DNA from: Rhodospirillales bacterium
GTDB lineage: Bacteria; Pseudomonadota; Gammaproteobacteria; Burkholderiales; Burkholderiaceae_D
Assembly: GCA_903970305.1 (NCBI GenBank)
Contig: CAJCID010000207.1
Span: 1-64,000, forward strand
Direction of reading: 5' to 3'
DNA: 64,000 nt
Shown here piece by piece: positions 8,841-17,611 of the stretch. The position numbers and the translations under genes are program-made. The notes under the pieces were generated by a model. That model was not told where the DNA came from. It did not search any database and was given only the letters and a program-made list of their open reading frames with translations. Numbering within the stretch: position 1 is the stretch's first letter; every line of letters begins with the position of its first letter.

Positions 8841-10871
8841 CTAGATGACGGCGGCGAGTTCGCTCGCCTGCTGAATTGCTCGTTTTGCGTCCAGCTCCGA
8901 CGCCTCAAACGCTCCGCCAACAAGGGTTGCGTTAAGTCCTTCCGCTGTCAGTTCGTCATAGAGAGACCGATTCGAGAGTTGGCCCGCGCAGACAATCACG
9001 TTGTCGACTTCGAAGAGACGCTCTTCGCCGTTAATCCTCGTGAGCAAGCCGCGTTCGTCAATCTTCAGGTATTCGACGCCATTGAACATCTGAATGCCGC
9101 GGCGGTTAAGCGTAATCCGGTGCGTCCAGCCGGTTGTGCGGCCGAGTCCACGCCCCACAGGGTCCGTCTTACGCTGCATCAAGAATATGGTTCGGCTTGA
9201 CTCTCGGGCCACCGGTGTAACACCACAGACGCCTCCCCGGGGATGGTTAAGGAAATCGATTCCCCATTCTCTTGCGAATTCATCGATATCGGTGGAACTC
9301 GACGTCCCTTCATGTGAGATAAATTCGGCCACATCGAAGCCAATCCCGCCCGCGCCAATGATGGCAACTCGCTCACCGACGACTCGCTGGCCCATCAAGA
9401 CATCCAAATAGCTGATCACCAGTGGATGATCGATTCCATCGATCAGCGGTCGGCGCGGGATGATCCCGGTCGCCACGACAACTTCGTCAAATGATCCTCG
9501 GTCGACCATAGAGGCGTCCACCGTAGTATTTAACCGAAGCCGAACGCCATTGACCTCGATCATTCGCCTGTAATAGCGCAACGTCTCGTGGAACTCTTCC
9601 TTTCCTGGAATTCGCTTCGCGAGATTGAACTGGCCGCCGATTTCAGAAGCTGAATCAAACAGAGTGACGGCGTGGCCACGTCGAGCAGCAACGGTCGCAT
9701 AGGCGAGGCCGGCCGGCCCCGCGCCAATAACGGCCACTCTTTTTGCCGCTCGAGCCGGTAGGTAATTTAGCTTTGTTTCATGGCAGGCCCTCGGGTTGAC
9801 GAGGCAACTTACATCCTTCCCGCCAAAGGTATGGTCCAGACACGCTTGGTTGCAAGCGATGCATGTGTTGATTTCATCTTCCCGGCCTTCGCGGGCCTTG
9901 AGCGCAAACTCGGGGTCGGCAAGCATCGGTCTTGCCATGGAGACGATGTCCGCATCACCTCTCGCGAGCACTGCCTCGGCGACGCTCGGCATATTGATTC
10001 GATTGCTTGTGATTAGCGGTACACGCAAGACCTTGCGGAGCTTGCCTGTGACGGAAGTAAAGGCGGCACGAGGAACCATGGTCGCAATGGTGGGAATAAG
10101 CGACTCGTGCCAACAAAAGTGGGTGCTGATGATATTGACACCAGCGTCTTCAAGCGCCTTGGCCAAAGTAATCACCTCGTCGTGAGTCATCCCGTCTTCA
10201 AGCATGTCCATTGCCGGGATGCGGACCGTCAGGATCTTGTGTGGCCCAATCACGGCACGCGTGCGTCGGACCACCTCGATCGGGAAGCGCATGCGGTTCT
10301 CAAAGGTGCCACCCCAGCGGTCAGTCCTTCGATTGGTTTTCTCAACAAGGAATGTGGACAGTAGGTACCCGCCGGAGGCCGGAATCTCGACTCCGTCGTA
10401 GCCGGCCTCCACGGCAAGCGCAGCGCAATGCACATGGTCGTTGATCTGCTTCTCAATTCCTTCTTCATCGAGTCCAATCGGCTTGTATTTGCCGACCCGC
10501 GACTTGATTGCAGAGGGAGCGACGCAGTTCTCCTGGAGCGCCAAGGGTCCCATATGGAGAATCTGCATACAGATCTTCACATCCGGGCCGGCGGCATGTA
10601 CCGCGTCAGTGACGATCCGATGCTGCTCTGCTTCCTCGTGCGTGGACAGTTTGGCTCCGAATCCGGCCTCCAGATTGGGTGGAATGCCTCCCGTGAAGAT
10701 CATGCCCACACCGCCTCGAACGCGTTCGACAAAGTACGCCGCGAGCCGCTCAAATCCGTTTTCCGCTTCCTCAAGGCCGGTATGCATCGACCCCATCAGG
10801 ATTCTGTTCTTCAGCGTTGTGAAGCCCAAATCCAGAGGGGAGAAGAGTAGGGGGTATTTCTCGGACTGCAT
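8841..10871 (-). CDS. fadH: 2,4-dienoyl-CoA reductase-like flavoenzyme (FadH, Old Yellow Enzyme family)
   Basis: The 676-aa length matches E. coli FadH. Domains in order are an Old Yellow Enzyme TIM barrel binding FMN (start [16 protein letters not shown]), a 4Fe-4S site with Cys in CIACNQACL and a downstream CLVNPRAC, an FAD/NAD(P)-binding domain with [10 protein letters not shown], and a second nucleotide site with [10 protein letters not shown]. The family reduces 2,4-dienoyl-CoA esters with NADPH. Start is at 10871 (MQSEKYPLL): the long open frame further upstream lies wholly over the nitroreductase gene and is spurious. Only 7 bases separate it from the nitroreductase stop. In a catabolic operon the real substrate may be a ring-derived or branched dienoyl-CoA. 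Confidence 0.9.
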
Positions 10872-10878
10872 GCTTTGC

Positions 10879-11607
10879 TCACCCGTGGACAAACGAGAAT
10901 GAGGATGCCGGTTCACGATGCGTGACCACCTGGTTGACCGGCGCGGTTGCGTCTGCATAACCCATCGACATACCGCAGATGACGACCTGGTCATTCGAAA
11001 GGCAGAGCTGGTCCGCGATGATCCGGTGGAACGGCGCGAAGGCGGCCTGAGGGCAGGTGCTGATACCGCGCGCGAGCGCCGCGAGCATGACGCTTTGCAT
11101 GAACATACCGAGGTCGAGCACGCTGCCCGGCACCATGATTCGCGGCAGCGTAAACATGAGGCCAACCGGAGCGCCAAAGAAGGTGTAGTTCTTAAAGAGC
11201 TGCGTTCGCATCCCTGCCGTGTCGCCGCGCGGTATGCCAAGCAAGGTGTACATGTCCTTGCCAACTTTCCTGCGCCTATCGATGTAAGGTGATATCCACT
11301 CTGTCGGGTAGGAGTCGAACTCAGGCTGATCGGGTGCTGACTCGGTTGCGTCCAAGCGCTCAAGGATGCTCGCGCTCAGGCGGCGCAATGCCTCTTCGAC
11401 CAGGACGTGGACGTTCCAGGCCTGCGTGTTGTGTCCAGAAGGCGCGCGCGCAGCGACGTCCAGGACTTCCATGACCGTCTCGATTGGGATCGGCCCAGGA
11501 AGGAATTGACGTACCGAACGACGTGAGGTGATCACTTCGTCGATGGCGACTTGCCTGGAGGTTTTCTCAAGGTTGCCCGCATCGGCTGAACTGAAATCTG
11601 GGGTCAT
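10879..11607 (-). CDS. Nitroreductase-family FMN oxidoreductase
   Basis: Nitroreductase-fold proteins bind FMN and use NAD(P)H on nitro, quinone or enoyl substrates. The 242-aa product has the N-terminal [10 protein letters not shown] and the FMN-binding stretch [12 protein letters not shown]. The C-terminal half holds [10 protein letters not shown] and a closing [11 protein letters not shown], all usual for the family. Its ATG (11607) overlaps the thiolase stop as ATGA, so translation is coupled. It lies between thiolase and dienoyl-CoA reductase in a CoA-ester operon, which suggests a reduction or dehydrogenation of a pathway intermediate rather than nitro-drug metabolism; this is inference. 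Confidence 0.88.
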
Positions 11608-15995: not shown

Positions 15996-16034
15996 AAGAG
16001 CGTGCACTGGCGCGTGTGAGTTCAACGGGAAGGT

Positions 16035-16823
16035 TTACTTCGGACCGAGCCGCTTGAGCGCAGCCTGGGCCTCTGGCTGCTGAATGCACGCTTCGAAGGA
16101 TTGCTTTTCCGCTGCTAACTGACTCGCCAAGTCGTTGCGTACCGCTTGGTCCAAAAGCGGTTTGGTTGCCTCGACAAACGCCGGCGGCAAGGACGCGAGG
16201 TCAAGTGCCAGTTTGTGTGTCGCGTCTGCAAGCTCCGCTGGTTCGACCACCTTGCTCACGATGCCTATTTCCTTGGCTTCGGCGGCGCTTAGCCGTTCCT
16301 CCATGAAGTACAGTCGCATGGCATTACGCAAACCTATTGCGCGAACCATATTGGCTGTTCCGCCGAAGTCGGGCGAAGCGGCGAGCTTGGCATATGCCGG
16401 GACGAACACTGCCTGACTGGACGCAATACAAAAGTCGCAGGCAACGACGAGGGAAAGCCCGCCTCCAGCTGCTGCACCTTGGACGCTTGCGACCACGAGC
16501 TTTCGGGACTTCCTCAGTTTGAGCAGGAAGTCGTTTGCCGCACCGAGCATGCGGTCCACCGTGCCCACCAAGTCGTCGCCCTGAGAGGCGAAGAATTGCA
16601 AATCGCCCCCTCCGCAGAATCCCTTACCGACAGCCCTGATGACGACCACTCTGACGTCTGCCGAAGCTTCGATTTGCCCGAGATAAGAGAGCAGCAGTTG
16701 CATGACCGCTTCGTCCAACGCGTTGTATCTGGCCGGACGATTAAGGGTGATATACGCAACCGGACCTTCAAAGGCGAGTAGCACGCCCGGCTGTTCGGAT
16801 CTCTGAAGGGGCACCGAGCTCAT
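16035..16823 (-). CDS. Enoyl-CoA hydratase/isomerase-family protein, isomerase-like active site
   Basis: Start is placed at 16823 (MSSVPLQRS), where ATG overlaps the SDR stop as ATGA; a longer frame would run into the SDR gene. The 262-aa crotonase-fold protein has GFCGGGDLQFF and GAAAGGGLSLVVACD. Both hydratase glutamates are absent: Ser sits at the Glu144 position, and the second region reads AYAKLAASPDFGGT. The PDFGG element resembles PaaG/enoyl-CoA isomerases, which use Asp there. A double-bond isomerase in ring-derived CoA-ester breakdown is a reasonable guess, not proven. Transcribed with the upstream SDR. Confidence 0.86.
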   Translation of the reverse strand: MSSVPLQRSEQPGVLLAFEGPVAYITLNRPARYNALDEAVMQLLLSYLGQIEASADVRVVVIRAVGKGFCGGGDLQFFASQGDDLVGTVDRMLGAANDFLLKLRKSRKLVVASVQGAAAGGGLSLVVACDFCIASSQAVFVPAYAKLAASPDFGGTANMVRAIGLRNAMRLYFMEERLSAAEAKEIGIVSKVVEPAELADATHKLALDLASLPPAFVEATKPLLDQAVRNDLASQLAAEKQSFEACIQQPEAQAALKRLGPK

Positions 16824-17611
16824 TGCGATGTTGAATAGCCACCGTTGACGGCATAGGTTTGGCCTGAAATCCAACTGGCGGCTTCTGAGGCCAAAAAAAG
16901 GATCATGTTGGCTGCATCGGTAGGCTCGCCGAGGCGACGAACGATGTAGCTCCTCAACATGCGCTTCACCAGCGCTTCATCTGAGAGGAGTTCTTGCAGT
17001 CCCGGGGTGTTGATGCTTGCAAGCGACACGGAGTTCACCCTGATGCCATGCGCGCCAACGCCCTTGGCCAGTGCCCTGGAGAATCCTGAGGCGCCGGCCT
17101 TGGCGGCCGAATAGACGGCGAGATTTGCTTCGCCAACTCGGCCCGCGTCGGAAATGACGTTGACGATACTGCCGCCGGTGCCGGAATTGATGATGAGCGG
17201 CACGGTAATTCGACACGTGTTCAGCACGCCGTAGAGATTGGTCCCAAGCCAGCGGCTCCAGTCGCTAGGTTCCGTTTCCCAAAAGGGCGGCAGATCGCCG
17301 ATGCCGTCAGTCGGGCCGGCATTACCTGCATTGTTGACAACGACGTGGAGACCGCCGGTTTTCTCCACGGCAGCTTCAACCAGCCTGGAGAAGGCTGGAT
17401 AGTCAGTGATGTCAGCCGCAACCACGATGGATCTGGCACCCAGTTCGGCGACCTCTTTGGCTACGGCTTCGGCGCGGTCGGCATGGAAGTCGTTGACGAG
17501 GACCGTATCGCAACCATTGGCAGCAAAGTGAAGCGCCGTCTGGCGCCCGACTCCTTGCCCTGCCCCTGTGACCAGGGCCGTCCTGCCTTGAAGACTGAGA
17601 ATGTTTTGCAC
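16820..17611 (-). CDS. Short-chain dehydrogenase/reductase (SDR), 3-hydroxyacyl-CoA dehydrogenase/ketoreductase-like
   Basis: Classical SDR of 263 aa. The NAD(P)-binding TGAGQGVG (15-22) is followed by an acidic residue at the end of the second strand (VNDFHAD), which favours NAD. NNAG (about 92-95) and a Ser-Tyr-Lys active site (VISDAGR, then VYSAAKAG) follow, and the end is YAVNGGYS. It starts with GTG at 17611 with GGAA upstream. It is coupled to a crotonase-family gene and preceded by two TGACT-N4-AGTCA palindromes. The likely role is oxidation of a 3-hydroxyacyl-CoA in the same catabolic route. Confidence 0.9.
   Translation of the reverse strand: MQNILSLQGRTALVTGAGQGVGRQTALHFAANGCDTVLVNDFHADRAEAVAKEVAELGARSIVVAADITDYPAFSRLVEAAVEKTGGLHVVVNNAGNAGPTDGIGDLPPFWETEPSDWSRWLGTNLYGVLNTCRITVPLIINSGTGGSIVNVISDAGRVGEANLAVYSAAKAGASGFSRALAKGVGAHGIRVNSVSLASINTPGLQELLSDEALVKRMLRSYIVRRLGEPTDAANMILFLASEAASWISGQTYAVNGGYSTSQ

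Follow-up and report, generated by a model that had tools for sequence, protein, structure and literature searches.

What class of compound is broken down by a coenzyme A (CoA)-dependent gene cluster that combines two flavoenzymes with a ligase, two crotonases, a dehydrogenase and a thiolase around a single TetR-family regulator? We addressed this question for eight genes in a 64,000-nucleotide stretch of a Burkholderiales genome (contig CAJCID010000207.1, positions 1 to 64,000; hereafter the window), which is contig 207 of an assembly of 4.33 Mb in 329 contigs, approximately 92% complete (GCA_903970305.1). The genes encode a short-chain dehydrogenase (SDR), two crotonases (ECH1 and ECH2), the TetR protein, an acyl-CoA ligase, an SCP2-type thiolase, a nitroreductase-family protein and a protein with an Old Yellow Enzyme (OYE) domain. 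From the sequence and its relatives, we consider it likely on balance that these genes form an accessory cassette, repressed by TetR, through which one class of unsaturated carboxylic acid is degraded in the manner of beta-oxidation.

The OYE-type protein resembles FadH

A first-pass annotation of the locus had drawn an analogy between the OYE protein and naphthoyl-CoA reductase (NCR), which would point to an aromatic substrate. Aligned end to end, the window protein is 56.5% identical to Escherichia coli FadH, and it scored 791 bits to that enzyme (PDB 1ps9) and 303 bits to NCR (PDB 6qkg). As in FadH, the OYE domain, 4Fe-4S linker and FAD/NADPH domains span the full protein, and the equivalents of Tyr166, His252 and the four Fe-S cysteines are retained. 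The residue close to FMN is His26 in 2,4-dienoyl-CoA reductase (DCR) and Val38 in NCR, Glu341 of NCR has no counterpart in DCR, and the NADPH site is obstructed in NCR by Trp459, at the position of Phe424 in DCR (PMC6502838). At the three corresponding alignment columns the window protein has His, Ser and Phe, in each case the FadH residue, including the His26 and Phe424 equivalents. NCR has the same three-domain OYE architecture, and its three specific residues are missing from the window protein. Judged by these alignments, the protein is a FadH-type 2,4-dienoyl-CoA reductase, and on the bit scores and the three diagnostic residues we reject kinship with NCR, and with it the analogy. Unlike E. 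coli FadH, the gene lies in a predicted TetR-controlled cassette and adjoins a nitroreductase-family gene.

Within the window genome the protein is the sole homologue at E <= 1e-120, and the four further Oxidored_FMN proteins are only 24-30% identical to it. FadH matches of 72-74% in genus g141 were rejected as evidence of synteny, their neighbours including no cassette genes.

Sister loci and accessory status of the cassette

Sister loci were identified by scanning genome contigs with the window thiolase. One contig of Xenophilus sp. L33 (L121) carries SDR-ECH1-TetR-ECH2-ligase-thiolase and ends inside the thiolase gene, with identities of 77%, 54%, 79%, 61%, 72% and, for thiolase residues 3-255, 73%. 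A second contig holds thiolase residues 267-412 (79%), the nitroreductase (67%), the OYE gene (72%) and then an acyl-CoA dehydrogenase; a second FadH, 56% identical, is found elsewhere in this genome. A synteny search had been proposed by the first-pass annotation, and the order ligase-thiolase-nitroreductase-OYE is indeed kept in another genus, in keeping with its description of a CoA-dependent catabolic locus around a single TetR gene. In a Burkholderiales metagenome-assembled genome (MAG; L066/L178) the row comprises TetR, SDR, nitroreductase, acyl-CoA dehydrogenase, ECH2 and thiolase, while the ligase gene runs divergently; a FadH-type reductase was not found anywhere in that genome. Outside Xenophilus, identities range from 62-72% for the SDR and 51-59% for TetR (four other sister loci each) to 50-60% for the ligase, and the nitroreductase is 60% identical to the copy in the MAG cluster. 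In the thiolase tree, the window falls in an eight-row set (97/97) holding all full-length loci that bear the predicted operator described below.

In a comparison with 60 relatives, of which 35 belong to the same family, no ligase orthologue was detected at E <= 1e-130 other than one 45% match outside the family; the 35 family members, including one of the same genus, have no cassette-type nitroreductase, and the thiolase was not found in the same-genus genome. Because these three genes are missing in relatives, and because the G+C content of the cassette is 0.581 compared with 0.626 in the window to its right, the cassette is, by genome comparison, accessory in the window genome, and horizontal acquisition is the best reading of its origin. 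The G+C contrast is weak as an accessory sign alone, because G+C is also reduced on the left side of the cassette: positions 4001-16000 have values of 0.58-0.60, below the rest of the window.

Related loci also differ in content. In L065, a close sister locus from a Burkholderiales MAG, SDR and thiolase are separated by genes for a thiamine-diphosphate enzyme and a CoA-transferase III (positions 3886-9149), a hint that this version includes a lyase step or one resembling alpha-oxidation. Annotated plasmid relatives in Caballeronia and Sulfitobacter were set aside as their thiolases are kin and their loci differ; the Caballeronia thiolase relatives lie near DUF1302, DUF1329 and MMPL genes. No published cluster with the composition seen in the window came up in searches of the literature.

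A predicted TetR operator at the cassette promoters

The 4.33-Mb assembly holds exactly two copies of the perfect palindrome TGACT-N4-AGTCA, both in the window upstream of SDR; the mean in shuffled windows is 0.05. The motif also lies upstream of SDR or ligase in L066, L067, L069, L070 and L121, which are all five of the 80 thiolase loci that have this TetR nearby, and there is none in L065, L068 and L098, the three members of the thiolase clade without TetR in the locus. When overlapping copies of the same stretches are disregarded, the sole further copy among the fetched loci is in one Rhizobium locus and is probably due to chance. A related form, AGTCA-N6-TGACT, is found as an exact copy between TetR and ECH2 in Xenophilus sp. 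L33 and upstream of TetR in L066; a candidate with one mismatch, weaker than the SDR sites, stands at the start of ECH2 in the window. We therefore predict TGACT-N4-AGTCA as a TetR operator that is conserved at the cassette promoters, and the prediction is new here. A scan for consensus promoters and terminators returned nothing over chance.

The best curated match of the TetR protein is Bacillus FadR, far below the cut-off. In the atu/dmg clusters for acyclic terpenes and diffusible signal factor (DSF), the TetR-family proteins AtuR/RdmA repress the degradation of branched unsaturated acids from the operator AGCAAGCGCTTGG, unlike the window motif (PMC9973270). Such repression of unsaturated-acid degradation is what we propose for the window cassette. 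A carboxylase is part of the atu cluster and, unlike there, none is present in the cassette.

The lack of an acyl-CoA dehydrogenase is local

No acyl-CoA dehydrogenase gene or remnant was detectable within the window, which thus lacks the complete linked set for beta-oxidation. To this extent the first-pass annotation was correct in reporting the enzyme as absent; its conclusion that ordinary beta-oxidation is thereby excluded fails, since the gene sits with the nitroreductase in sister clusters and the window genome has 18 matches outside the window. In Xenophilus sp. L33 an intact frame directly follows the OYE gene (tblastn) and is 63% identical to the enzyme encoded inside the MAG cluster (Pfam). 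The best match in the window genome is 53% identical to the MAG enzyme and adjoins isovaleryl-CoA-dehydrogenase-like and thiolase genes, both identified by sequence reading. Because the Xenophilus and MAG clusters each encode an acyl-CoA dehydrogenase and the window genome has the 18 matches elsewhere, the absence is local. Substitution of this enzyme by the nitroreductase is disfavoured, as both co-occur in two sister clusters.

Altered catalytic residues in the crotonases and thiolase

That both crotonases are atypical, as had been proposed, was borne out at the residue level. In ECH1, neither of the two hydratase glutamates is present and an aspartate stands in an 'SPDxGG' motif, the column having been set by alignment to 5zai and 4jfc rather than to PaaG. 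PaaG uses a catalytic aspartate in its isomerase chemistry (PMC7497051), and we equate the 'SPDxGG' aspartate with that of PaaG-type isomerases, which share both features. ECH1 scored 142 bits against the 345-bit cut-off of TIGR02280 and is thus not PaaG itself, and it is likely a delta3-delta2-enoyl-CoA isomerase. ECH2 retains the first residue of the hydratase pair Glu144/Glu164 and has His for the second, within a GD[AG]HANFG motif that is also present in relatives. In 33 of 80 related loci the gene immediately upstream of the thiolase encodes a relative of ECH2, and 32 of these 33 have a Gly-Asp/Glu-x-His motif. We regard ECH2 as the likely hydratase-type enzyme of the cassette.

The thiolase retains the nucleophile Cys and the GHP motif of SCP2-type thiolases, and scored 229 bits over nearly the full length of an SCP2-thiolase type 1 (PDB 6hsj). 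Unlike that enzyme, it has HDAT in place of the HDCF motif with the second catalytic Cys, and 'IQENGGG' in place of the C-terminal 'LQHNxG'; HDAT or HDAS is found across the entire clade. Alanine at the HDCF cysteine is also seen in benzoylsuccinyl-CoA thiolase BbsB (PDB 7pxp, 185 bits) and in PDB thiolase 7yvy, so that HDAT was rejected as proof of new thiolase chemistry and the window enzyme may still carry out thiolysis. BbsB acts with a partner subunit, BbsA, and the window locus differs in having no BbsA-type gene.

Many Comamonadaceae and related loci show another arrangement (L071-L103 and others, approximately 5-8 kb and 10 kb) with two SCP2-type thiolases, one of HDCF and one of HDAT type, several acyl-CoA dehydrogenases and a CoA-transferase III gene. 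This is a conserved catabolic locus for which we found no match among described pathways.

The nitroreductase-fold flavoprotein

The nitroreductase-family protein scored over the Pfam cut-off, has the conserved N-terminal SRRS(V/I)R motif, and matched Bartonella 3gr3 with 205 bits and NfnB with 101 bits, from which it differs in lying in a catabolic operon. The first-pass annotation had treated the two flavoenzymes as paired; the MAG, with its nitroreductase and no FadH-type reductase in the genome, indicates that they are not a fixed pair. If a role for the nitroreductase is to be guessed, flavin-dependent redox chemistry on a ring or conjugated ketone comes most naturally.

A paralogue, 51% identical, lies on contig 287 of the window genome (L148, 1806-2465) in a block of phasin, DMT-transporter and histone-deacetylase-like genes that is conserved in many family members. 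The widespread nitroreductase matches in relatives were discounted as synteny, those examined being a housekeeping paralogue with phasin, transporter and thioesterase genes as its neighbours. Several sister clusters have flavoproteins of the nitronate-monooxygenase family (PF03060) at their flanks (L067, 1099-2145 and 12055-13017; L069; L065, 11344; L066, 11105); these clusters are without the nitroreductase, except L066, which has both.

Locus layout and gene starts

All eight genes named in the first-pass annotation were found where it had placed them, with matches to the expected Pfam families far over cut-off, and its bounds of 8841-17611 correspond to the stop of the OYE gene and the start of SDR (Table 1). 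The minus-strand genes overlap or are separated by a few to some tens of bases, in a row interrupted by TetR. Starts were revised for OYE (10871), nitroreductase (11607), ligase (14425) and ECH1 (16823), and the 840-residue OYE frame originally listed includes a spurious 5' extension. TetR probably begins at the ATG at 15327 rather than at the TTG, because homologues share the same N-terminus, '[MV][AP]RWKN'. To the right lie isc genes (IscR 17926, IscS 18483; identified by sequence reading), and to the left an alpha/beta hydrolase gene (7923-8759) is convergent with the cassette and gives no sign of being part of it.

Table 1. Genes and predicted regulatory sites of the cassette, in window coordinates.
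Feature	Position	Strand	Basis or remark
FadH-type NADPH 2,4-dienoyl-CoA reductase, predicted (OYE domain, 4Fe-4S, FAD/NADPH domains)	8841..10871	-	56.5% identity to E. coli FadH
Nitroreductase-fold flavoprotein (NfnB / Bartonella 3gr3 group)	10879..11607	-	Pfam; matches to 3gr3 and NfnB
SCP2-type thiolase	11604..12854	-	nucleophile Cys and GHP kept; HDCF replaced by HDAT
AMP-forming acyl-CoA ligase	12872..14425	-	AMP-binding 220 bits, with AMP-binding_C
Crotonase ECH2, likely hydratase-type	14451..15266	-	first Glu kept, second is His in 'GD[AG]HANFG'
Candidate second operator form, ECH2 start, between ECH2 and TetR	15261..15276	+	AGTCATTTAATTGACC; one mismatch to AGTCA-N6-TGACT
TetR-family repressor (TetR_C_24), FadR-like	15327..15995	+	listed frame begins at TTG 15303
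Crotonase ECH1, likely delta3-delta2-enoyl-CoA isomerase	16035..16823	-	no hydratase Glu; 'SPDxGG' Asp as in PaaG/enoyl-CoA isomerases
SDR, likely 3-hydroxyacyl-CoA dehydrogenase of the cassette	16820..17611	-	Pfam adh_short_C2 184 bits; YxxxK conserved
Predicted TetR operator site 1, upstream of SDR	17678..17691		perfect palindrome TGACTTTATAGTCA, read towards SDR
Predicted TetR operator site 2, upstream of SDR	17714..17727		perfect palindrome TGACTTTTGAGTCA, read towards SDR

Proposed function and alternatives

Gene content, conserved order, operator conservation, the FadH identity and the catalytic residues, all read from the sequence, are consistent with a scheme in which the individual reactions, the isomerase role of ECH1 and the TetR ligand are proposed as follows. 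The ligase would convert the acid to its CoA ester, and an alpha,beta double bond would either be present already in the substrate or be made by an acyl-CoA dehydrogenase, encoded in the sister clusters and unlinked in the window genome. ECH1 would move double bonds that stand in the wrong place, and the FadH-type reductase would eliminate conjugated 2,4-dienoyl-CoA with NADPH, after which hydration by ECH2, oxidation of the hydroxyl by SDR and cleavage by the SCP2-type thiolase may follow; the acyl-CoA or the acid would release TetR from the predicted operator upstream of SDR. FadH and enoyl-CoA isomerase form the textbook auxiliary pair for unsaturated acids, and a dedicated unsaturated-acid cassette is favoured because the beta-oxidation set, with the acyl-CoA dehydrogenase of the sister copies, is accompanied by these two classical double-bond enzymes. 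A branched or alicyclic/cyclic substrate is only suggested, because of the SCP2-type thiolase and the CoA-transferase III/racemase-type genes in some relatives; the alicyclic or terpenoid part of the earlier guess stands as a possibility, and nothing indicates an aromatic acid.

Several observations weigh against the unsaturated-acid cassette. A FadH-type reductase is present in only two of eight sister genomes and is not universal to the TetR/operator group, and the Xenophilus gene order is read across two contigs and an assembly gap within the thiolase gene. One step of the window copy would depend on a presumed contribution from an unlinked acyl-CoA dehydrogenase. With one hydratase Glu gone from ECH2 and the HDCF Cys gone from the thiolase, neither reaction is safe from homology, and the locus has no linked transporter, nor an enzyme for an upstream attack on a ring or chain, that might give a substrate clue.

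In one alternative the substrate is a specific alicyclic or terpenoid/steroid-type ring acid, with the nitroreductase and OYE protein acting on ring enones or dienes and with ECH2 and the thiolase cleaving a ring or side chain other than by standard hydration and thiolysis. The joint conservation of the Glu-to-His and HDCF-to-HDAT changes across many loci argues for this, as do the nitronate-monooxygenase-type flavoproteins and CoA-transferase III genes in relatives and the DUF1302/DUF1329/MMPL genes of Caballeronia, a combination that occurs in clusters for hydrophobic substrates. However, BbsB and 7yvy show that HDA need not signal new chemistry, the locus has neither a ring hydroxylase nor a member of a ring-cleaving family linked to it, and the OYE protein is FadH-like at every diagnostic position, so that we hold a ring acid to be not very likely, if the most credible of the rivals. 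The bolder form of the idea, that ECH2 and the HDAT thiolase split a cyclic or branched CoA ester by a reaction not yet described, the nitroreductase adding a redox step, as part of an uncharacterised alicyclic/terpenoid-acid pathway spread across alpha- and betaproteobacteria, strikes us as doubtful. Oxidation of plain straight-chain unsaturated fatty acids by an ordinary fad-type set would fit the general fatty-acid families matched by the ligase and crotonases, the FadR match of TetR, and the standing of the reductase as the only high-scoring FadH homologue in the genome. We judge it improbable nonetheless, given that the nitroreductase and SCP2-type thiolase lie outside known fad sets, that the operator is restricted to one locus, and that the second FadH in Xenophilus argues for a specialised cassette copy. 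Dearomatisation of an aryl-CoA in the manner of NCR, raised by the first-pass annotation, can appeal to the common OYE fold and to NCR as second PDB match; with the replacement of all three NCR residues, a Phe that leaves the NADPH site open, and no ferredoxin-linked partner at the locus, it is very improbable.

Should the substrate prove to be an ordinary unsaturated acid, the locus would add only modestly to what is known. The analysis nevertheless corrects an easy misreading, in which an OYE domain is mistaken for an aromatic-ring reductase, and draws attention to a crotonase-thiolase pair that is widespread and has changes in its catalytic residues. With a conserved TetR and a genome-unique predicted operator, the question of the substrate is opened to direct testing through the ligand that releases the repressor.

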